Of a stretch of 40,231 nt of DNA, positions 3,129 to 38,242 are shown in pieces. Under the pieces are notes generated by a model. That model was given only the letters and a program-made list of their open reading frames with translations, ran no database searches and was not told where the DNA came from. Source of the DNA: a virus. The stretch covers positions 1 to 40,231 of IMG/VR virus record IMGVR_UViG_3300024344_000042; one strand, written 5' to 3'. Numbering within the stretch: the first letter of the stretch is position 1; every line of letters begins with the position of its first letter. The translations under genes and the position numbers were made by a program.

Positions 3129-3563
3129 TTATGTACGACGCGAAAGCCGGGTGCGTCTGGCTAACTGGTAGCGGCAATGCTTCGAGCAGGTCTTGGACCT
3201 CCCCCGCGTTTTCGCAGGCGGCGCATATTCGTTCCCACACCATTCGCACGGCTTCACCTTCGGATGTTTGCTGTGATGCAGGCTGGAATGCTCTTGAATG
3301 GTCAAAACTTCCAAGTTTTCGATTCGATTGTCGCGCTTGTTGCCGTTCTTGTGGTGGACGTGTTCGTTCGTCTTGAGTTGTCGTCCGAGATGGGTTTCCA
3401 TTACCGCCCTGTGTTCGGTGGTCGGCGTCCCGTCCCTGTGTGTCTGGACGTACCATCGTCCCGTCCGGCGGCTCACGTTGAAGCAACTTCTGCAACAGTA
3501 TTTGTTCCGGGGCCGTTCGGCTGGAAACGTACCGCCGCAGGCTTCGCATGTTTTCTGTATCAT
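3129..3563 (-). CDS. HNH endonuclease, free-standing homing type
   Basis: 144-residue HNH nuclease. Two zinc-binding clusters flank the core: CEACG...CCRSC (residues 6-27) and CEWCG...CSKHC (106-130). The core is typical of the HNH_3 group found in phage homing enzymes: [20 protein letters not shown] followed by [11 protein letters not shown]. The start codon overlaps the methyltransferase stop (AAATGA). Comparison with the copy at the right end shows that this gene plus the last ~35 methyltransferase codons replaces about 40 bases there, so it marks an insertion. It probably spreads by cutting methyltransferase genes that lack it. Confidence 0.9.
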
Positions 3564-4765
3564 TTAACGATCCCTTGTAGCCCGTGCGCCCCTGCCAGCG
3601 TTTGCCATGCGTAGGCCGCTGTGATGGGCACGACGGCGTTGCCAAGGACGCGCAAAAGAGGTGATCGGGCGGAAAGCACATCAACCAGCTTACGAAAAGC
3701 GGGTTCAGGCGCCGCTTGTCCCGTGACCGCCACAGCCGCCGCGTGATGGTTCGCCCATGCCGCCGCATCGCGTAGCGCAATAGCCGGTAATAGGTCGGGC
3801 GGGGTTCGACGCCAGGCTTCGAAGTCGTCGGGCCTGGGGGCGTGAATGCTTGTTCGGCGGCAAAGTCCAACATGTCCAACCGGCTCTTTCCGTCCCGCCG
3901 CGTTACTGAACCCGGGCTGCTGCCCTTCTGGTCGCGCGCCGCTGGCGTCGGCCAGTTCGCCGCTTGCGCTGGCAGCGGTGTCCCGCCCGTGCCGAACGCT
4001 TGGTTCGGCCCGCCTTTTTCCGCGTCCGATGCTCGCGGCGTTCCCCAGAGCGCCAAGGCCATCGCTTCCGCTTTCCGAGTGAAATCGTTGTTGCCCGCCG
4101 CGCTGTTCCCGTTCTGTGCGGGAGTTCCGGCCATCGGAGTCGGCCAGTTCTGAGCGTCGGTCGGCAGGCAGCGGTTCCCCGCGTGCCTCTGCCCCGTCTT
4201 TTGCCCCGACCCGCGCGCCGTCACGTCGTGGGCTTGTGGCGTCGTCCATGCCCGTGCTGTATGCAACGCAGAACCAGCGCAGCCGTTCATGTGCCGCGCC
4301 TGTTTCTTCCGCAGAGAATAGGCCAACCGCAGGCGTGAAACCCATTCCCCATAACTCTCGCAATACGGCCTCTGCGCCGAGGCTGGTGTGGCCCGCGACG
4401 TTTTCAAGGAAAACCCATCGCGGGGAACATTCGCGGATGATGCGGGCGACATGGGGCCATAGGTGTCGGGGGTCGTCTGCGCCGCGACGTTGTCCCGCTT
4501 GGGAAAACGGCTGGCATGGATAGCCGGCGGTGACGGTGTCAACGATGCCGCGCCACGGGTAGCCGCTGAATGTTTTGACGTCGTCCCAGATCGGGGCAGC
4601 GGCAAGGTATCCGGCGCGCTGGGCGGCGATGATGGTTTGCCGAGGGTAGTCTTCCCATTCAACATAGGCGGCGGCGGCAAAGCCCGGCTCGGCAAGTTCA
4701 AGGCCCATGTCAAGTCCGCCGCCGCCTGCACAGAGGCTGAGGCCGCGTCGGGGAGGTAATGCCAT
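3560..4765 (-). CDS. C5 cytosine-specific DNA methyltransferase (copy A)
   Basis: 401-residue enzyme that should transfer a methyl group from SAM to C5 of cytosine, probably protecting phage DNA from restriction. Motif I is [13 protein letters not shown] (residues 9-21), motif IV the catalytic [10 protein letters not shown] (Cys84), motif VI FLENV (119-123), and motif X LGNAVVP near 375. The middle contains repeated AD/GN-type segments ([21 protein letters not shown]), with 55 residues more than copy B. The gene is expressed leftwards after the DUF7694-like gene, one base apart. No cognate restriction nuclease is adjacent. Confidence 0.93.
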
Positions 4766-21757: not shown

Positions 21758-22180
21758 ATGGCAAAGGACCTGGGGCGCACGCTCCTTCTCAAAATCGGTG
21801 ACGGCGCGACGCCGACCGAAGTCTTCACCACGCTGGCCGGGATCACGTCGAAAGGGATCGACTTCGAGGCTGACACCATCGACGTCACCACGCCGGACAG
21901 CACGGCGCCCGGCGGCCGCATGGATCAGGAGCTGCTGTGCGGCACCCAGCGCATGCGGGTCAGCGGCAGCGGCGTGGCCGAGAACGAGGCCACCTATACC
22001 CGGCTGATGACGGTGCTGCGCAGCGCCACGCGCAAGTGCAATTTCCAGATCGTCGATCCCGGGGACGGCACCTATGAAGGCGCGTTTTTCGTGACTGGCA
22101 GTATCACCGGCGAAGACATCTCGGGTGGCAAGACCTTCAACATCACGCTGCTGTCGAGCGGCGCCTACACCTTCACCTGA
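21758..22180 (+). CDS. Major tail tube protein
   Basis: 140 residues, TP901-1/GTA-type tail tube protein: GRTLLLKIGDG, TLAGITSKGIDFEADTIDVT, QELLCGTQRMRVSGSGVAEN and FFVTGSITGEDISGGKTFNI. It should polymerise as hexameric rings around the tape measure. An independent Shine-Dalgarno is weak (AACGGAGCC upstream). It is followed after four bases by the chaperone gene. Confidence 0.92.
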   Translation: MAKDLGRTLLLKIGDGATPTEVFTTLAGITSKGIDFEADTIDVTTPDSTAPGGRMDQELLCGTQRMRVSGSGVAENEATYTRLMTVLRSATRKCNFQIVDPGDGTYEGAFFVTGSITGEDISGGKTFNITLLSSGAYTFT

Positions 22181-22184
22181 TCCC

Positions 22185-22613
22185 GTGGCGATTGCGGGAA
22201 CCGGCGCCTACGAGGAAGAGATCGGCGGCGCGCGCCGCCGGCTCGTCCTGCGCAACGGCGAGATCGAACGCTTCGAAGAGCAGCACGACCTGGGCATCTT
22301 CGAGCTGTTCGAGCAATTGATGGGCCGGGGGGCGCGGCAGCCGCAAGTGCGGCACGTCCGTGACCTGGTGGCGCTGGGGCTGGTGGGCGGCGGCATGGCC
22401 GACCGGGCCGCCGACGCGCTGGTCGCCGGCCTGGGCCCCGAGCACAATCTCGATCTGCGGCAGTTTGCCAGGGCGCTGCTTGGGGTGACCTTCCTGCCGG
22501 CGGTGCGGGAGGCGGCGAAGGACGCAAAAAAGCCGGATGGATCGGGCGACGACAGCGCCGAAGCGTCACCCATTGGGACGCCCGGTCCAGGCTCCGAAAC
22601 CTCTGCGGCGTGA
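22185..22613 (+). CDS. Tail assembly chaperone (upstream frame product)
   Basis: 142 residues from GTG 22185. GAYEEEIGGARRRLVLRNGE, then FEEQHDLGIFELFEQLMGRG and VRDLVALGLVGGGMADRAAD match GTA-type tail assembly chaperones (PF11836-like). The last ~27 residues after AAKDAKKP are low-complexity (DGSGDDSAEAS, GTPGPGSETS), as expected for a frame that terminates after a frameshift site. The slippery heptamer A_AAA_AAG lies in register at 22526-22532. Like lambda gpG, this protein would coat the tape measure during assembly. Confidence 0.88.
   Translation: MAIAGTGAYEEEIGGARRRLVLRNGEIERFEEQHDLGIFELFEQLMGRGARQPQVRHVRDLVALGLVGGGMADRAADALVAGLGPEHNLDLRQFARALLGVTFLPAVREAAKDAKKPDGSGDDSAEASPIGTPGPGSETSAA
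22526..22532 (+). promoter_or_regulatory. Programmed -1 ribosomal frameshift site (A_AAA_AAG)
   Basis: The heptamer AAAAAAG is in the phase of the chaperone frame (gcA AAA AAG), the most efficient bacterial slippery sequence. After a -1 slip, the reading continues from 22532 without a stop through 22765, fusing the chaperone to the following small ORF: join 22185-22532 with 22532-22765, about 193 residues. The layout is the lambda G/GT arrangement between tail tube and tape measure. Confidence 0.8.
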
Positions 22614-22765
22614 CCGGCAGACTGCCGGCGGCCATTCGGGCGATGACGCCCGAAGAAACGATCCTGTTCACCCAGGGCTGGAATGCCGCGCAAAGCGGCG
22701 GACTTGACCCGCCGGACCGCGACGAGGTCATGGCACTGATGGAGCAATACCCGGATGGCGAGTGA
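22610..22765 (+). CDS. Second tail chaperone domain (T part of a G-GT pair)
   Basis: 51 residues if started alone at GTG 22610 (ATG 22643 also in frame), but more likely made as the C-terminal part of a -1 frameshift product. Key segment MTPEETILFTQGWNAAQSGG followed by RDEVMALMEQYPDGE. The upstream open part in this frame (GRRQRRSVTHWDARSRLRNL) has no stop back to the slippery site. Ends within the start of the tape measure gene, overlapping by 11 bases. Comparable short ORFs occur at this position in many siphoviruses and gene transfer agents. Confidence 0.75.
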   Translation: MTGRLPAAIRAMTPEETILFTQGWNAAQSGGLDPPDRDEVMALMEQYPDGE

Positions 22766-24884
22766 AGAAACCGAGCGTATCGAGATCATCCTGGCGGCCC
22801 GTGACCGCGACCTGAACCGGGCCATCGACCGGTCGAACAAGCTGATCGCCAAGTTCGAGCGCGACGCGCGGCGCAACACCGGCCGGGCCACCCGCGAGAT
22901 CAACCGCAATCTCGACCGGTCGGCCGAGCGCTTTGTCGCCTTCGGGCGTGCCGGGGCGGCGGCGCTGGCGGCGCTGGCGGCCTCGGCCACGACCGGGGCC
23001 ATCCGCCGCACGGTGCGCGGCATTGCCGAGATCGGCGACCAGGCCCGGCGCTCGGGCCTGGGTGTGGATGAGTTCCAGGCGCTCAAGTTCGTCGCCGAAC
23101 AGACCCGCATTCCCATCGACAGCCTGGTCGACGGCATGAAAGAGCTGTCGCTGCGCGGTGACGAGTTCGTGGCAACCGGGGCCGGGCCGGCGGTGGAATC
23201 GTTCCAGCGGCTGGGGCTGAGCGCACAGGACCTGGCGCAGCAGCTTCATGACCCGTCCGAGCTGCTGCTGGAAATATTCAAGCGGATGGAAGACCTGGAC
23301 CGGGCGGCGCAAATCCGGGTGGCCGATGAAATCTTCGGCGGCACCGGCGGTGAACGCTTTGTCGAGCTGATGGCGCAGGGTGCTGGGGGCATTCGCACCA
23401 TGATGGGGCAGGCGCGGGAAGCCGGCGCGATCCTGGACAGCGAGGTGATCCAGAAGGCCGACGAGATCGACAAGCGGTTCTCCGCAATGACATCCCACGT
23501 TGGAGCCGCGCTGAAGGCGCTCTCTTTGGACGTCGTTCAGGTCGGCGTCAACTGGGCCGATGGCATCGGCGCTGTAGTCACGCCGGAAAGGGACCAGGCG
23601 GCCGACGGGATTCACTTTGCGAAAAGCCTGCTGAGCGAAGTGCAGGCGATTAACACGGCCTTGATCACCACCAATCAAAGGAGCGACCAGCTGGCGGCAT
23701 TGGCCGTCAAGCTTCGAAGCGTCGTTCGGGCCTTCGAGTCTGGAGATATCAATCTCGACACCTTCACGCACGCCCTTAAAGCTATCATTGAAGACGGTAA
23801 CACGGCGGTCGACACCGTCGCCGCCCTTGACGATATCGCGGTCGATGGCCTGATCTCCCGGATCAACGCGCTGGCGGGTGCGCTGAAGACAGTGGCGACC
23901 GAGGCCGCCACGGTGGCGGCGGCCATACCGGCCGCGGTGACCCACAGCAACGAACCGGACCAGAGGATTGGCGAGCCGGTGATCGGTATTTCGCCCCTGG
24001 CGCCGGTCACGTCGCCGCGGCCGGTGCCTCCGCCCAACGACATCGATTTCGGCGTGCCGATCGTTCCCGCCGGCGGCGGCGGCGCGGCGTCGGGCGACAG
24101 CTATCTCGACCAGGTGGCACGCTATCGCGACGAGATCGCCCAGCTTGAACTGGAGGCCGCGCAGCTGGTGCTGGTGGCCGAGGGCGGCCGGCAGCTGGGT
24201 GACGCGCTGGAATATGCGCGGGTCAAGGCCGAGCTCTTGTATGCGGCCCAGAAAGAGGGGCGCGAGGTGACGCCTGAGCTGGCCGCCGAGATCGACGACT
24301 TGGCGTCGTCGCTGGTGGCGGTCGGCGCTGAGGCCGACGCCGCGGCCGACAAGCTGGCGCGCATCCAGGACAATGCCAGGCGTGGCGCCGACGCCATGGC
24401 CGACCTGTTCTACGGCATCCTGTCGGGGTCGATGTCGGCCGAGGATGCCGTGGCGCGGCTGCTGGCGCAGATCGCCCAGGCCCAGCTGGCGGCGGCCTTC
24501 AACGGCATGGCTGCGAATTCGCCGACCGGCGGCTTCCTGTCGATCCTGGGCTCGCTGTTGTCGGGGGGGCGCGCCAGTGGCGGCCCGGTCACCGCGGGGC
24601 AGCCATATCTGGTCAACGAAAACACCGCCAACTCCGAAATCTTCGTGCCCTCGCAATCGGGCGCGGTGCTGAACGTGCCGCAGGCGCAGGCGGCCTTGTC
24701 GGGCAGCGGTGGCGGTGGCGGCGGCGGAAGGATGATCCTCGATATTCGGGTCGAGGAGGCGCCCGGCTTTGCCTCACAAGTCAAAGCTCAGGCCAATGCG
24801 GCGGCCGCCGAGCACATCAGCGCCTATGACCAGACGCTGCCGTCGCGGGTCAGCGAGATCGCCGACGATCCGAGGGTGCGCTGA
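22755..24884 (+). CDS. Tail tape measure protein
   Basis: 709 residues; by the usual 1.5 angstrom per residue rule this implies a tail near 105 nm. N-terminus charged helical (RDRDLNRAIDRSNKLIAKFE), then a hydrophobic stretch (AGAAALAALAASATTGAI) and GLGVDEFQALKFVAEQTRI. The C-terminal part has the canonical GGRASGGPVTAGQPYLVNEN and SEIFVPSQSGAVL. Around 23470-23870 the base composition is less GC-rich than on either side, suggesting a replaced internal segment. It overlaps the next gene by one base. Confidence 0.93.
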   Translation: MASEETERIEIILAARDRDLNRAIDRSNKLIAKFERDARRNTGRATREINRNLDRSAERFVAFGRAGAAALAALAASATTGAIRRTVRGIAEIGDQARRSGLGVDEFQALKFVAEQTRIPIDSLVDGMKELSLRGDEFVATGAGPAVESFQRLGLSAQDLAQQLHDPSELLLEIFKRMEDLDRAAQIRVADEIFGGTGGERFVELMAQGAGGIRTMMGQAREAGAILDSEVIQKADEIDKRFSAMTSHVGAALKALSLDVVQVGVNWADGIGAVVTPERDQAADGIHFAKSLLSEVQAINTALITTNQRSDQLAALAVKLRSVVRAFESGDINLDTFTHALKAIIEDGNTAVDTVAALDDIAVDGLISRINALAGALKTVATEAATVAAAIPAAVTHSNEPDQRIGEPVIGISPLAPVTSPRPVPPPNDIDFGVPIVPAGGGGAASGDSYLDQVARYRDEIAQLELEAAQLVLVAEGGRQLGDALEYARVKAELLYAAQKEGREVTPELAAEIDDLASSLVAVGAEADAAADKLARIQDNARRGADAMADLFYGILSGSMSAEDAVARLLAQIAQAQLAAAFNGMAANSPTGGFLSILGSLLSGGRASGGPVTAGQPYLVNENTANSEIFVPSQSGAVLNVPQAQAALSGSGGGGGGGRMILDIRVEEAPGFASQVKAQANAAAAEHISAYDQTLPSRVSEIADDPRVR

Positions 24885-26134: not shown

Positions 26135-26553
26135 TGATCGAACCGCAACCATTGCAACGCCTGCCCGACTGGCGGGTGCGGCTGACAGACTATCTCAATC
26201 GGGTGGCGCGACTGCGCTTCCGGCCCGGGCGGCACGATTGCGCGTTGTTCGCGGCCGGCGCGGTGCAGGCCATGACCGGCATCGACCCGGCCCGGGGCTG
26301 GCGCGGTTACCGGACGCTGAACGAGGGCCGGCTGAAGCTGGAGCGGCTGGGCTATGGCGATCACATCGCCCTGGCCGAGGCGTGGCTGCCCGAGGTGCCG
26401 CCGTCCTTCGGGCGCGAAGGTGACATCGCCGTGCTGGACGGCGACATCGACCAGTCGCTGGGCGTGGTGCAGGGCGCGCGCATCTACGTGCTGCGGCCCG
26501 GCGGCCTGGGGCTGGTGTCGCTGACAGAAGCCCAGAGGATGTTCCGCGTATGA
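26134..26553 (+). CDS. NlpC/P60-like tail peptidase (DUF6950 type)
   Basis: 139 residues from ATG 26134, overlapping the previous stop. RFRPGRHDCALFAAGAVQAM (Cys36 within HDCALF) is the nucleophile motif of the small phage NlpC/P60-like family, and FGREGDIAVLDGD is the usual following strand. A conserved later histidine is not obvious, so activity is uncertain. In lambda-like tails this slot holds gpK, which helps pass peptidoglycan and joins tip assembly. Confidence 0.8.
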   Translation: MIEPQPLQRLPDWRVRLTDYLNRVARLRFRPGRHDCALFAAGAVQAMTGIDPARGWRGYRTLNEGRLKLERLGYGDHIALAEAWLPEVPPSFGREGDIAVLDGDIDQSLGVVQGARIYVLRPGGLGLVSLTEAQRMFRV

Positions 26554-29500
26554 TCCGCCTTGTCGTCGCGGTCCTGGCCGCATTCCTGTTCCTCGCCCAG
26601 CCGGCCGAGGCCGGTCCGCTGGCGGCTGCCCTTGGCGCGCTGGCCCAGGGCGCCTGGGCGGCCATCACGGCCTCGACCATCGCCGGGCAGCTGATCCGCG
26701 GCGTCATCTTCTCGCTGTTGTCGCAGATGCTGGCCGGCAGCCAGCGCGAACCCGGCATCGCGACCGAGGTCACGCAGGATGGCGGGTCCAACCCGATGGG
26801 GTTCCTCCTGGGCCGCTATGCCACCGGTGGGTCGTTTGTCGCCCCGCCGATGAGCCACGGCGCGGCCGGCAACACGCCCAACGCCTATCTGAGCTATGTC
26901 ATCGCGGTCAGCGACGTCCAGATCACGGCGATCGACAAGCTCTGGCTGGCCGACCGCGAGGCCGATGTGTCAGGCGCGGTGCACGCCGATTATGGCGCCG
27001 AAGCGGTGGGCGAGTTCGCGGCGCGGCTGTGGATGAAAACCTACGACGGCACCCAGACCGTCGCCGACCCGGGCCTGGTTGCCAAGTATGCCGCCGATCC
27101 CGAGCGGCCGTGGACGTCCGACATGATCGGGCGCGGCGTCGCCTATGCAATCCTGACATTCCTGTATGATCGCGAGGTTTACAACGGCTTCCCCCAGGTG
27201 CGCTTTGAGGTCCGGGGCATCAATCTTTACGACCCGCGCAAGGATGACACCGTGGGCGGCACCGGCACGCACCGCTGGAGCGACACAGCGACGTGGGAGT
27301 TCTCGGAAAACCCCATCGTCATGATCTACAACCTGCGCCGCGGCATCCCGATGCTGGACGGGTCGATCTATGGCGGCCGCGCGGCCGAGGCCGATCTGCC
27401 ATATGCAAACTGGGCGGCGGCGATGAACGCCTGCGACGCGGCGGCCGAGATCGAGGGCGGCGGCACCGAGCCCGCCTATCGCGCCGGGTTCGAGGTCAGG
27501 GTCAACGACGAACCGTTCGACATCGAGAAGGAGTTGCTCAAGGCCGCGTCGGCCCAGATCGTCGAGGCCGGCGGCACCGTCTATATCCGCGTCGGCCCGG
27601 TGGGACTGCCGGTCTATTTCTTCACCGATGACGACTTGCTGCGCACCCGCGACCAGGAGCTTGACCCGTTTCCTGGCCTGGCCAAGACCTTCAACGCCGT
27701 GCACGCATCGTTCCCGGACCCGGCGCAGTCGTGGGAGGCGACCGACGCGCCGCCACGCTATGACGCCACGCTCGAAGCCGAAGACGGCGACTGGCAGCTT
27801 TCCGCCGACCTGAGCCTGCCGGCGGTCCCGTTCCCCGATCAAGTGCAGCGGCTGATGAAGGCCTGGATCGAGGATGCGCGCCGGTTCCGGCAACATCGCG
27901 GCGTGTTCCCGCCGGACATGCTGACCGTCGATCCGCTGGAGGCCGTGAGCTGGACCAGCACACGCAACGGCTACAGCGCCAAGATATTCGAAGCCGGGGC
28001 CATGCAGATCGATCCGCGGTCGCTGGCGGTGGGTGTGGCGCTGCGCGAACGCGATGCCACCGATTACGACTGGGTGCGGGCCGACACGCAGCCGTCGGAC
28101 ACGCCGTCGACCACCACGACGCCGCCGGCGACCCAGGTGGTGCCCGGCTTCGCGGTGGTGGCCACCGACATCAGCGACGGCACCAATGCCCGGCAGCCGG
28201 CGCTCAAGATCAGCTGGACCCCGACGCTGGATGGCGTCAGCGGCGTGGCCTGGGAAATCCGTCTCAGCGGCGACACGGTGGTGCAGTCCACCGGATCGAC
28301 CCACAATTTCGCCCTGGGCGAGGTGATCGTGGCCGAGGGCATCCTGGCCAACACCGCCTACGAGGTCCGCGCCGACCTGATCACCGACCTGCCCCACGCC
28401 TTCACGGCCTGGACGGCGGTGACCAGCAACGACACCCGCATCACCACGATCGACCTGTCGGACGCGCTGAACCAGGAGATCGACGACGCGGCCACGTCAT
28501 CGGCGGCCGACAAGGCGGCGGCAGAAGCGGCGGCCACGGCGGCGGCGGCGGCGCAGGCACTGGTCGAAGGCGTTCTCGACCTGGTTGGCCCGGTGGAGCT
28601 GGCCGAGCCCATCGGCGCCTGGACAGGCTATTCCGCCAGCAGCACCACGGCACCGCCCAAGACCGCCTTGACCACCGGCATCGTTACCGGCGACGCCGAT
28701 TTCGGCGACTGCTACGAGTTCCCGGACACTGGCAACAAGACGTTGGGCCAACAGGCGGGCTTTGCGCTCGACCCCGCCGCTGGCACGGCGCTGAAGCTGA
28801 CGGTCACGGCCAAGGTGGTGACCGATGGCACGGGCGGGACCGGCGCCTACAAGATCGGCATCTCGACCTGGGCTGGGGTCACGTCGCTGGAGAACAACAT
28901 CCAGTTGTCGACCAAGACCGACAAGGCGGTTGCGGATGGGGCCTTCACCCTCACCGTGCTGTTCGGGCTCGACACCGATGTGACCGATACCGACCGGGCG
29001 TCTATGGGCTGCGACTACCTGGTCAACTGGACCTCGGCCAGTGCCACCGCCGACCGGCTGTTCCCGCATTTCCGCCAGAACCCTGGCAGTGAGGCATCGA
29101 AGTTCCGCGTCGACCTGATGCAGATGCAGGACGTGTCGGCGGCGCTGAGCGCCAAGCGTGACGCGGCATCGGCGGCTGTGTCCGAGGTCAATTCCGCCGC
29201 CAGCGCGGTCAGCGCCACAGCGCAGGCCGACCTTGCCACAGCCGAGGCTCTGGAAGCCAAGGCGCTGGCCGTGCAGGTCAAGTATCAAAACTGGGGCGCT
29301 GGCGCCCTGTCCGACCGGGTATGCCTGATCGCCGACACCTACGAGGTGATGGTCGAAGAGGCCGCGACCGCGATCTACCTCAACGGGGCCTACTCCCAAA
29401 CCTTGAGCCCCGGTGCGCTGACCGATGTCGTGCTGGCCCAGGGCGATGTGCTGAGCAGCGGCGGCAAGCCGTTGGGCGCCAGCGCCAAGAACAACGTCTA

Positions 29501-31808
29501 CGGGCTGCAACTGGGGTCGCAGGCGCACACCGGCAATCTGTTCGTCCACCATGTGACCCGCAATTTCGACACCTACGCCTGCAAGGTGGTGCTGTGGATG
29601 TCGGCGGCTGGCAAATATCGCGCCAAGAAGAGCGAGACGCAGGGCGACATCGACCTGTCGGCTGAGAGCTGGGTGACGGTGCCAGCCGGCGTGACGGTGC
29701 TGACCTTTGCGTCAGGCACGGTTGCCGGAGCCACAGTGTCAGTCGAGACCGACGCCCCGGCGCTGGCGGCGCTCTATTTCGATACGTTTGCCCATGACCA
29801 GGCGATCCTCGAACCGCTGTCCGAGATCATCGTCAGTCGCGACACCAGTGGCCAACGTATCACCGCAGGCGGCGGGACGCTGGCTCAGTTCGGCAGCCAC
29901 CCCGCCTGGCACACCACCGACTATCTGACCAAGGCGTCGGGCTCGATCACCGGCGACGGAGGCGGCACCAGCGCCATCAACTACGCCAACTACTACCGCC
30001 GGTCAGACCGCTTCCCGTTGGCCCAGACCGACCTGACCGACTATTTCATCGCCTCCGACGAAGGCTGCACGGTCACCATCACCGACAAGAACGGCGCCAC
30101 GGTGGCCACCAAGACGTTGACCCCGGACACCGACGGCTGGGACGAATTGCAGGTGGGTAATATCGCTGGCACCGATCCGTCGATCAGCGCCAATGGGCCG
30201 TTCTTCTTTACCGGCAGCGCACCGTTCCTGCTGGGCGTGAACAAGATGCAGGACGAATACTGGCCGCAAGGCTACCTGAGCGCAGCCAAAGGCACCGGGG
30301 CGGCGGGCGGCGCGGCGACGGCCAGCGCGGCTCAGGCGACCATTGCCACGGCGCAGGCGACCGCGGCTGGGGTCTCGGCGGCGGCAGCCTCGACCAGTGA
30401 ACTGAACGCGAGCACATCAGAAGGCAACGCGCTGGTCTCTGAGAACGCGGCGGCTGGGTCTGCGACCGGCGCCAGCGGGTCGGCAGCGTCAGCACAGCAA
30501 AGTTCGCTGGTGTCGGCGCAGCTTCTTGGTGCGGGCGTGGCTTTGGACCCGACGCTGCAAACATGGTCGGGCGGGTCGCCCATCAACGGCTGGCAGACTG
30601 TGGGTGAAGGAACCGTCACCGAGAGCACCGGAAACCCGTATGGGTCGGCGGCGCTGATCGAAACACTCAACCCGCCCACTGCGGCCAATCCTGTTCTGAA
30701 GATCAACGCGAGCGACGGGGACTACACCGTCTTCCCGCTGTCCAACGAGACCGACGAGATGCTGGTCACGCTGGAGGTGTCGCTGGTGGCCGGAACATGG
30801 GAGGGCGCGCATCTACGCGTGCGCTGGTTCCAGGCGCTGACCGGCAGCACCTACGTTGACACCATCGTCTATATCGACGGGATGGACGCGGACGCGATAA
30901 CGCTCTCCAACACCGTGGGTCTCAAGCAGCGTGTGAGCGTGCAGATCAAGCGCCCCACCGGTTTCGTCTATGTCGACAATCCGCGCATGGAAATTCGCTT
31001 TCAAGCGGCCAGCAACGCGGGCATCCGCAGCTACACCTACGGCAAGTTCAAGATCCACAGTTTCGACGCGGCGCCGGTATTGGCTGGGTCGACTGCTGAG
31101 TGGCTGTCTTTTGCCAAGGCCACCAGCGACGGGCTGGTCGAAGCCGGTATGGTTCTTCGCGCGAACGGTGCTTCGATCGAGATTGTCGGGGCGGACGATC
31201 CGGTTAGCGGAACGAAAGTCACCGGCATCTATTTCAACGCCGACGAGGTGATTGCGTCGGGGTCGATCAAAGCAGCGCATATTGCTGCCGATACAATCAC
31301 CGCAACCCACATCGTTGCGGAAACAATTGACTCGCCCGAGTTGGCCAACTTCTCCACGTCCTTGGAGTTCTTCAAGTTGGCCGAAGCGCGAATTGATGCC
31401 GTTTCGGTCGGGCCGATCTACGAGCCGAACAGTGCCGGGCTGAAATGGGTAAAGCTGGTCAACATCCCGGACTTTCCGCGCGAGGCCGGCTACGCCTGTA
31501 GTCTGGCGGTGAGCTTTGCTTACGAGATTGCGAACCCTCCGGGGGGCGCGGACTATCGCTTCGTGATGCCGTTCATTCGGGTTAAGCGTGACGGGGTTAT
31601 CATTTCCAATTCCGTCTATGCCACGCCGATCATTGGGGTGAGCAGCATTTCATTCTCGAACACCTTCACATGGAATTGGGTGGACGAGGATAAGTCAATC
31701 AGCGGCAACGTGAATTACAAATTCGAGATCGCCGTGGGTGGCCAGACGAGCGGATACATTCTCGCCTGCACAAACCGGTATGCGAAAGCCCGGCAGGATT
31801 TCAAATGA
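26550..31808 (+). CDS. Tail tip attachment protein J-like, central fibre
   Basis: 1752 residues. Residues 1-22 are hydrophobic (LVVAVLAAFLFLAQPAEAG), then a hub domain with ILTFLYDREVYNGFPQVRFE, LRRGIPMLDG and ELLKAASAQIVEAGGTVYIR as in phage-tail_3/J proteins. About 530-630 resembles a fibronectin III module (PALKISWTPTLDGVSGVAWE). Three Ala-rich coiled-coil spacers lie near 643-673, 863-907 and 1249-1323. IKAAHIAADTITATHIVAET near 1570-1590 is typical of J C-termini. The last ~240 residues use less GC-rich codons than the rest. It likely determines receptor binding. Confidence 0.9.
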   Translation: MIRLVVAVLAAFLFLAQPAEAGPLAAALGALAQGAWAAITASTIAGQLIRGVIFSLLSQMLAGSQREPGIATEVTQDGGSNPMGFLLGRYATGGSFVAPPMSHGAAGNTPNAYLSYVIAVSDVQITAIDKLWLADREADVSGAVHADYGAEAVGEFAARLWMKTYDGTQTVADPGLVAKYAADPERPWTSDMIGRGVAYAILTFLYDREVYNGFPQVRFEVRGINLYDPRKDDTVGGTGTHRWSDTATWEFSENPIVMIYNLRRGIPMLDGSIYGGRAAEADLPYANWAAAMNACDAAAEIEGGGTEPAYRAGFEVRVNDEPFDIEKELLKAASAQIVEAGGTVYIRVGPVGLPVYFFTDDDLLRTRDQELDPFPGLAKTFNAVHASFPDPAQSWEATDAPPRYDATLEAEDGDWQLSADLSLPAVPFPDQVQRLMKAWIEDARRFRQHRGVFPPDMLTVDPLEAVSWTSTRNGYSAKIFEAGAMQIDPRSLAVGVALRERDATDYDWVRADTQPSDTPSTTTTPPATQVVPGFAVVATDISDGTNARQPALKISWTPTLDGVSGVAWEIRLSGDTVVQSTGSTHNFALGEVIVAEGILANTAYEVRADLITDLPHAFTAWTAVTSNDTRITTIDLSDALNQEIDDAATSSAADKAAAEAAATAAAAAQALVEGVLDLVGPVELAEPIGAWTGYSASSTTAPPKTALTTGIVTGDADFGDCYEFPDTGNKTLGQQAGFALDPAAGTALKLTVTAKVVTDGTGGTGAYKIGISTWAGVTSLENNIQLSTKTDKAVADGAFTLTVLFGLDTDVTDTDRASMGCDYLVNWTSASATADRLFPHFRQNPGSEASKFRVDLMQMQDVSAALSAKRDAASAAVSEVNSAASAVSATAQADLATAEALEAKALAVQVKYQNWGAGALSDRVCLIADTYEVMVEEAATAIYLNGAYSQTLSPGALTDVVLAQGDVLSSGGKPLGASAKNNVYGLQLGSQAHTGNLFVHHVTRNFDTYACKVVLWMSAAGKYRAKKSETQGDIDLSAESWVTVPAGVTVLTFASGTVAGATVSVETDAPALAALYFDTFAHDQAILEPLSEIIVSRDTSGQRITAGGGTLAQFGSHPAWHTTDYLTKASGSITGDGGGTSAINYANYYRRSDRFPLAQTDLTDYFIASDEGCTVTITDKNGATVATKTLTPDTDGWDELQVGNIAGTDPSISANGPFFFTGSAPFLLGVNKMQDEYWPQGYLSAAKGTGAAGGAATASAAQATIATAQATAAGVSAAAASTSELNASTSEGNALVSENAAAGSATGASGSAASAQQSSLVSAQLLGAGVALDPTLQTWSGGSPINGWQTVGEGTVTESTGNPYGSAALIETLNPPTAANPVLKINASDGDYTVFPLSNETDEMLVTLEVSLVAGTWEGAHLRVRWFQALTGSTYVDTIVYIDGMDADAITLSNTVGLKQRVSVQIKRPTGFVYVDNPRMEIRFQAASNAGIRSYTYGKFKIHSFDAAPVLAGSTAEWLSFAKATSDGLVEAGMVLRANGASIEIVGADDPVSGTKVTGIYFNADEVIASGSIKAAHIAADTITATHIVAETIDSPELANFSTSLEFFKLAEARIDAVSVGPIYEPNSAGLKWVKLVNIPDFPREAGYACSLAVSFAYEIANPPGGADYRFVMPFIRVKRDGVIISNSVYATPIIGVSSISFSNTFTWNWVDEDKSISGNVNYKFEIAVGGQTSGYILACTNRYAKARQDFK

Positions 31809-37162: not shown

Positions 37163-38242
37163 CTAGTTACGCCTGCGGCGGTCCGGGTTTACAGGGTTCT
37201 GTTTCTGTTCCGTTCCCAAAACGGCCTTGGCGCGTTGTGCCCGGCGCGTGTAGCGCTCGACTTCGGAGAGCGTTGTGTGACCGACCCAGGCCTGCATCAT
37301 GAGCACCCCTGCGCCGAACTCGGCCAGCTGGTTCATCCGATACTTTCGCAGGCCGTGAGCCGCCAGGTCACCCAGCCCGGCGGCACTGGCGGCGCCGGAG
37401 AACCACGAGCTGAAGGCCTTGATCGATCGCGGCTTGCCGGACGCTGTGCGAATGAACACCAGCCCTTTGGTGGTCTGGGCCAGGCTGGTGACCAAATGCT
37501 GGCGCTGCCATTCCAGGTCGGCCGGGGCGTGGGTCCAGGGCACCATTGCTTCGACGCCGGTCTTGGACTGGCGAAACACCATGAGGCCGTTCGCGCGGAC
37601 CATCCCGGGACCCAGCCGGACGGCATCGCTGGCCCGGGCCCCTGTCCACTGCAGCAGCTCGAACGCCAGCCTTTGCGGCGACCCCGCCGGCCAGTGGGCG
37701 CGAAACCGTTCGACATCTTCCGGCTGCCATTCCGGGTGGCCCGGCGTCGCCGGAAGCCGCTGGCTGCGCACCGACCCGGCCGGATCGGCCGTCACCCAGC
37801 CCTGGACGCGCCAGAAGGCCCCCAGCTTGCGCCAGGCCTTCATGCGCGCCTGGGCTACTGACGGCAGGAGGGTTTCGATGTTGGCCTCGATGTGGCGCGG
37901 GCGCAGGTCGGCCATGCGCCCCTGGCCGCCGGCCAGGCGGATCGCTTCGACGTGGCGGCGGATCACGGCGCGATAACTGGTTCCAAGGCCGGCGAAGGAA
38001 GCCGAGGCGAGGTAGGCCACGCAGCCGGCCCCGATCGTGCCTTCGGCGTGCGGCGACTTCGGCACCGGCTTGCGGGCTTCTTCGGCCGTCCAGGCGGCGA
38101 TGAAGTCGGGGTGGTCTTCGGGGATGTCTGAGGGCAGTGGCGCACGGGTGCGGCGGTGATACTTGTGCACCGCACCGCCGGGCTTGGTGACACGATGCAC
38201 GCGTGGCAGTTTCACGCGCTCGCCCCGAACAATCCGTCGCAT
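37163..38242 (-). CDS. int: Tyrosine-recombinase integrase
   Basis: 359 residues. The catalytic set is complete: Arg203 (TGARASDAVRL), Lys227 (RQSKTG), His296 and Arg299 (HGLRKYR), His322 (VGHTTL) and nucleophile Tyr331 (EVERYTRRA). The N-terminal 60 residues are basic, like arm-binding regions, and 60-150 form the SAM-like core-binding domain. It catalyses prophage integration and, with the excisionase encoded just upstream, excision. Start overlaps the excisionase gene by 31 bases. Confidence 0.94.
   Translation of the reverse strand: MRRIVRGERVKLPRVHRVTKPGGAVHKYHRRTRAPLPSDIPEDHPDFIAAWTAEEARKPVPKSPHAEGTIGAGCVAYLASASFAGLGTSYRAVIRRHVEAIRLAGGQGRMADLRPRHIEANIETLLPSVAQARMKAWRKLGAFWRVQGWVTADPAGSVRSQRLPATPGHPEWQPEDVERFRAHWPAGSPQRLAFELLQWTGARASDAVRLGPGMVRANGLMVFRQSKTGVEAMVPWTHAPADLEWQRQHLVTSLAQTTKGLVFIRTASGKPRSIKAFSSWFSGAASAAGLGDLAAHGLRKYRMNQLAEFGAGVLMMQAWVGHTTLSEVERYTRRAQRAKAVLGTEQKQNPVNPDRRRRN

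Follow-up and report, generated by a model that had tools for sequence, protein, structure and literature searches.

In the window, the whole 40,231-nucleotide stretch of viral DNA that we analysed, genes for the terminase, portal, capsid, connector, tail terminator and major tail protein lie 5' of a gene predicted to encode a tail assembly chaperone (22185..22613, + strand). The major tail (tube) protein gene (21758..22180, + strand; PF06199, E 6e-18; phrog_1407) is directly upstream of the chaperone, and the tape measure protein gene (22755..24884, + strand; phrog_10574, E 1e-129; PF10145 just under its cut-off) overlaps the end of a small ORF that continues past the chaperone in the -1 frame. 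The original prediction had placed the chaperone where phage lambda makes gpG and gpGT, and its location between the major tail and tape measure genes bears this out. The tail region of the window also holds a 1752-aa ORF (26550-31808).

The window carries an integrase-like ORF (37163-38242, - strand; phrog_1, E 9.7e-18), unlike RcGTA-type gene transfer agents (GTAs), which have no integrase. Together with ORFs for an endolysin (1382-2050, + strand) and a DNA methyltransferase (3560-4765, - strand), this identifies the window as an integrase-bearing phage, probably temperate, and not a gene transfer agent. Its nearest named relatives are found mostly in Rhodobacterales genomes.

The 3' part of the chaperone gene contains the heptamer AAAAAAG (22526-22532, + strand), a predicted slippery sequence. 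Counted from the GTG start at 22185, position 22526 is a third codon position and the codons across the heptamer are GCA AAA AAG, so that the phasing A_AAA_AAG claimed for it in the chaperone frame is correct. Read in the zero frame, the gene stops at TGA 22611-22613 and specifies a 142-aa short form, the 'G' product, which belongs to the TAC_11 (GTA-gp10) family; its tail 3' of the heptamer, PDGSGDDSAEASPIGTPGPGSETSAA, is of low complexity, again as claimed. The -1 frame had been described as open from 22532 to 22765, and its opening proved wider, with no stop between 22364 and the stop codon at 22763-22765. A slip at the heptamer would join the first 116 residues, common to the short form, to a 'T' part with a TAC_6-like domain (22532..22765, + strand; 77 aa plus stop). 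Translation would thereby yield a fusion of 193 aa beside the 142-aa protein, the two lengths originally proposed.

AAAAAAG is present as a single copy in the window, both strands counted. Dinucleotide shuffles of the window contain 1.43 copies on average, and 69 of 100 contain at least one; the count is thus within chance, and we rejected the rarity of the heptamer as evidence. Lysine is encoded in the main structural genes by AAG 139 times and by AAA 34 times, and just one of the nine Lys-Lys pairs in these genes is written AAA-AAG, namely the slip site.

The short form matches PF11836 (TAC_11, GTA-gp10) at E 3.3e-10 (40.3 bits, cut-off 27.8) and phrog_8985 (tail) in PHROGs. Among the viral fold matches of an AlphaFold model of its domain (pLDDT 89.6) are proteins that bear the name tail assembly chaperone and, at lower strength, GT of phage N15. 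By family match above cut-off and by modelled fold, the first domain belongs with the tail assembly chaperones. The -1 extension scores 17.6 bits against PF09550 (TAC_6), below the cut-off of 23.4. Among 25 aligned members, TAC_11 is matched by all 25 and TAC_6 by nine at E up to 1, the best at 1.1e-5. The modelled -1 domain is of moderate confidence (pLDDT 78); taken alone, it had no match in PHROGs, and its model matched no viral fold at E <= 0.001. Sequence and fold searches of the PDB returned nothing useful for the chaperone domains.

Profile scans for relatives yielded two partly overlapping sets, 18 genome loci and 64 viral contigs, and frame relations were read with profiles for both domains. 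Removal of duplicates left 65 distinct -1 junctions, some of them still close kin. Wherever both domains were found, the TAC_6-like one is read in frame -1 relative to TAC_11, the exceptions being phage RcapNL (frame 0) and L049 (+1). An in-phase A_AAA_AAA, A_AAA_AAG or A_AAA_AAC is present at 63 of the 65 junctions; the other two are L014, with G_GGA_AAG, and L089, a weak match without an in-phase run. Runs of at least six A occur elsewhere in the junction loci once per 4381 nt, and the permitted window summed over junctions is 6566 nt. It is this retention of an in-phase run, and not the heptamer alone, that makes the slip site significant. Loss of the heptamer or a stop in the -1 frame had been named as evidence against a frameshift; we looked for both, and essentially all relatives keep the in-phase A run and the open -1 frame. 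Toward the 3' end of the first gene, a putative slippery sequence is therefore conserved among relatives, and from this conservation we infer that the shift occurs in cells.

Near the same junction, L014, L121, L139 and L145 have an in-register G_GGA_AAG or G_GGA_AAA. The former is the slippery sequence of lambda G/GT.

Two loci depart from the -1 relation. Phage RcapNL encodes both domains in one continuous 190-aa ORF (RcapNL_00016, AFA44856; L008 2501-3073), whose product is 56% identical to the window's over 189 residues and has the same two domains. It differs from the window in that the long form needs no frameshift, the domains being already in one frame; its junction run is A7C, in the zero frame. 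A +1 slip in RcapNL would end after about 11 codons, and in this phage slippage might be what yields the short form. L049 has an A8 run (around 2800-2830) with the second domain in +1, which fits loss of one A from A9, whether by sequencing or in reality. Both loci are what one would expect if the pair were a single ORF broken in the assembly by a sequencing error or a real indel, RcapNL for its single frame with an A7 run and L049 for its one-base offset. Random errors would give mixed frames, however, and the 65 distinct junctions, which draw on isolate genomes and metagenomes alike, share the same -1 relation; we regard a broken ORF as extremely improbable.

The same two families also occur in gene transfer agents. 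A PF11836 search of the genomes of 12 relatives returned 13 strong matches besides the prophage copies, and we read the GTA-type junctions L091-L095, L101 and L103 (L096-L100 and L102 were left out). At six of these seven candidate loci, TAC_11 stops directly after its domain, and TAC_6 starts independently, in the -1 frame and without an A run. At the seventh, L103 (84.8 bits to PF11836; from the same genome as L094), the downstream frames encode a different gene with no TAC_6 domain, for which reason we leave it out of the GTA gp10/gp10.1 loci. The RcGTA-type gp10/gp10.1 pair thus has PF11836 followed by PF09550, in the same order as the window, but as separate genes, whereas the window's pair would be linked by a frameshift. 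On the six loci read, the GTAs of these hosts appear to keep TAC_11 and TAC_6 apart; we take these clusters to be GTAs from their gp10 match. The separate-gene layout recurs in L124 and in most of the L200-L220 set, from another order.

This layout lends interest to a second explanation of the window, in which TAC_6 is a separate gene translated by coupled re-initiation, like GTA gp10/gp10.1, and the heptamer is incidental. A possible GTG restart of the second ORF indeed overlaps the short-form stop TGA as GTGA (22610..22613, + strand), an NTGA overlap is found in 25 of 64 junctions, the window's own included, and six of the seven GTA-type candidates are organised as separate genes. To this extent TAC_6 may additionally be produced from a start of its own. 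The overlap in relatives can, however, arise from the GTGATG codons of conserved VM residues alone, and 30 of the 64 junctions lack a start codon between -7 and +8 nt relative to the zero-frame stop. By eye, no Shine-Dalgarno (SD) sequence precedes GTG22610. Re-initiation would also leave the in-phase A run kept at 63 of 65 junctions without a role.

The coding constraint upstream of GTG22610 points the same way. In the stretch 5' of the zero-frame stop where both frames are open, mismatches counted over 19 independent, non-overlapping pairs number 123, 119 and 169 at -1-frame codon positions 1, 2 and 3 (of 495 each). Position 3 of the -1 frame is position 2 of the zero frame, and it holds the most mismatches; of the two frames, the -1 frame is therefore the more constrained. 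The aligned -1 peptide shows conservation beginning at the slip (GWI.R...DAR..I.NICGVMGRLPAEVRAMTP), and its conserved residues W, I, N, C and G (GWI.R, then N.CG) are located upstream of GTG22610. The first helix of the modelled -1 domain likewise begins before this codon, so that a start there would remove helix 1. The single ORF of RcapNL, with both domains in one protein, speaks for a fused product too. Judged by these alignments, the shifted frame stays open after the slip site and codes for protein, and we consider re-initiation as the sole route to TAC_6 very unlikely.

The length of the A run varies among relatives, from 9-10 in 47 loci to 6-7 in 16 (of 64 junctions). Mapped on a 62-row TAC_11 tree, the division into a short class (A6-7 plus GGGAAAG) and a long class (A9-10) needs about 12 changes, at least four of them forced by well-supported branches. 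Given such repeated switching, the short and long types look interchangeable, as they might if RNA polymerase slipped on the A run and produced mRNAs with altered numbers of A, as in Thermus dnaX. The literature supports both ribosomal and transcriptional slippage on A runs, and the A9-A10 found at 47 of the 64 junctions are lengths known for the latter (PMC3711429, PMC5009743). In the longest-run (A9-type) relatives, the shift may be transcriptional rather than ribosomal. The run in the window, by contrast, is an A6, below the n > 7 that PMC3711429 gives for transcriptional slippage on A runs, and it stands in the canonical X_XXY_YYZ register with dnaX-like flanks. Polymerase slippage is a highly unlikely account of the window, and for its A6G site we infer a shift of ribosomal nature, together with its efficiency.

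Two sequences flanking the heptamer could stimulate such a shift. The SD-like GGGAGG (22507..22512, + strand), 13 nt before the heptamer, is a weakly indicated candidate; its duplex with the anti-SD has an energy of -8.7 kcal/mol, compared with -5.5 for shuffles. A hairpin is predicted 5 nt after the heptamer (22538..22589, + strand), with an 11-pair outer stem (22538-22548 with 22579-22589). In a 60-nt window its energy is -27.6 kcal/mol (z -2.1, with 6 of 200 shuffles as good), and in an 81-nt window its z is only -0.6. Folding of the RNA 3' of the site had been suggested as a check, and its outcome was mixed: a hairpin is predicted in the window itself, but across relatives downstream structure does not exceed background (mean z -0.81 versus -0.61 in control windows, p = 0.09), and we rejected conserved downstream structure as general evidence. 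The run classes differ in hairpin energy and SD pairing (p about 1e-4), a comparison confounded by base composition and kinship; with the shuffle-based hairpin z the p value is 0.55, and the idea that short-run loci have stronger stimulators was also rejected.

The decoding tRNA may be a further point of likeness to E. coli, where the shift-proneness of A_AAA_AAG has been linked to a sole tRNA-Lys (PMC5009743). In two Rhodobacterales genomes with such prophages, tRNA-Lys(UUU) was the only lysine tRNA found, although both tRNA sets are incomplete, with Ile and Tyr tRNAs found in neither. The dnaX cassette of E. coli has an SD-like sequence upstream and a stem-loop downstream of A_AAA_AAG (PMC6787027, PMC3711429). 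The window has the same heptamer, with a candidate SD-like stimulator upstream and a predicted stem-loop a few bases downstream; the resemblance of its layout to the dnaX cassette is no more than suggestive. The two differ in outcome, as the very efficient dnaX shift gives the shorter product and the window's shift would give the longer one.

A different motif marks TAC_11 genes in other alphaproteobacterial orders. At 13 loci (L122, L126, L127, L129, L130, L194, L195 and L221-L226), TAC_11 ends in CCT TTC CCT GGN (CTT GGA in L226), and 16-19 nt ahead of the zero-frame stop the -1 frame encodes the TAC_6 motif PFPW. All 13 carry C_CCT_TTC and 12 carry T_TTC_CCT; since the loci were grouped by the PFPW/CCT TTC motif itself, the C_CCT_TTC count describes them and tests nothing. 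We regard C_CCT_TTC in these genes as a candidate frameshift site. On reading L193, a further locus from a small order, this layout was not seen. Among 20 separate-gene loci, 13 have TTT as the corresponding Phe codon, which makes codon choice alone weak evidence for slipping there.

Among the papers searched, none reported a frameshift in a TAC_11/TAC_6 pair, though this does not prove that no report exists. No occurrence of g10, Rcc01692, Rcc01693 or chaperone was found in a paper on the structure of RcGTA (PMC7296036). Unlike most of the R. capsulatus phages described in PMC8601537, RcZahn is said there to show no clear sign of the frameshift sequences usual for tail chaperones.

Together, the results lead us to propose, with a probability of roughly 0.9, that the TAC_11/TAC_6-like chaperone of this phage is made in two forms by a -1 shift at A_AAA_AAG, in the manner of lambda G/GT. 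The phasing of the heptamer, the gene order, the conservation of the junction and the constrained frame were all observed here. Most ribosomes would read 22185-22613 and release the 142-aa TAC_11 protein. A minority would slip one base back at A_AAA_AAG, with tRNA-Lys re-pairing from AAA-AAG to AAA-AAA, and would continue in the -1 frame to 22765, yielding the 193-aa fusion that ends in the TAC_6-like domain.

A tail-assembly frameshift is reportedly conserved among dsDNA phages (Xu, Hendrix and Duda 2004). Like lambda G/GT, the window's pair has a position between the major tail and tape measure genes, an in-register heptamer near the 3' end of the first gene, short and -1-extended products, and a TAC-like fold of the first domain. 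Lambda uses G_GGA_AAG, whereas the window has A_AAA_AAG and most relatives A9, and the window's families, TAC_11 and TAC_6-like, are unlike lambda's. Product ratio and function are suggested by analogy only with gpG/gpGT, which have been reviewed with the dsDNA-phage frameshift (PMC5009743). On that analogy, the domains would divide the labour: the shared part would coat the tape measure protein, the extra domain would recruit tail-tube subunits, and the ratio of short to long product would set tail assembly.

A broader view of the family is more tentative, and we think it rather less probable than not. TAC_11 and TAC_6 may be linked by interchangeable means: a ribosomal shift at A6-7, probable RNA polymerase slippage at A9, in-frame fusion in RcapNL, and other heptamers (G_GGA_AAG, and C_CCT_TTC in other orders), with uncoupled genes in Rhodobacterales-type GTAs. 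Loss of coupling could accompany the domestication of a phage into a GTA.

The frameshift itself is a device well known from phage lambda; what the present data show is its conservation in a distinct, GTA-related protein pair. With this finding, the known tail-chaperone frameshifts would extend to a widely sampled clade of Rhodobacterales prophages, and it would correct the annotation of the second gene, in which GTG or ATG start calls miss the true N-terminal part. It would also allow a single chaperone pair to be compared in its naturally occurring frameshift-linked, fused and separate forms, GTAs included.
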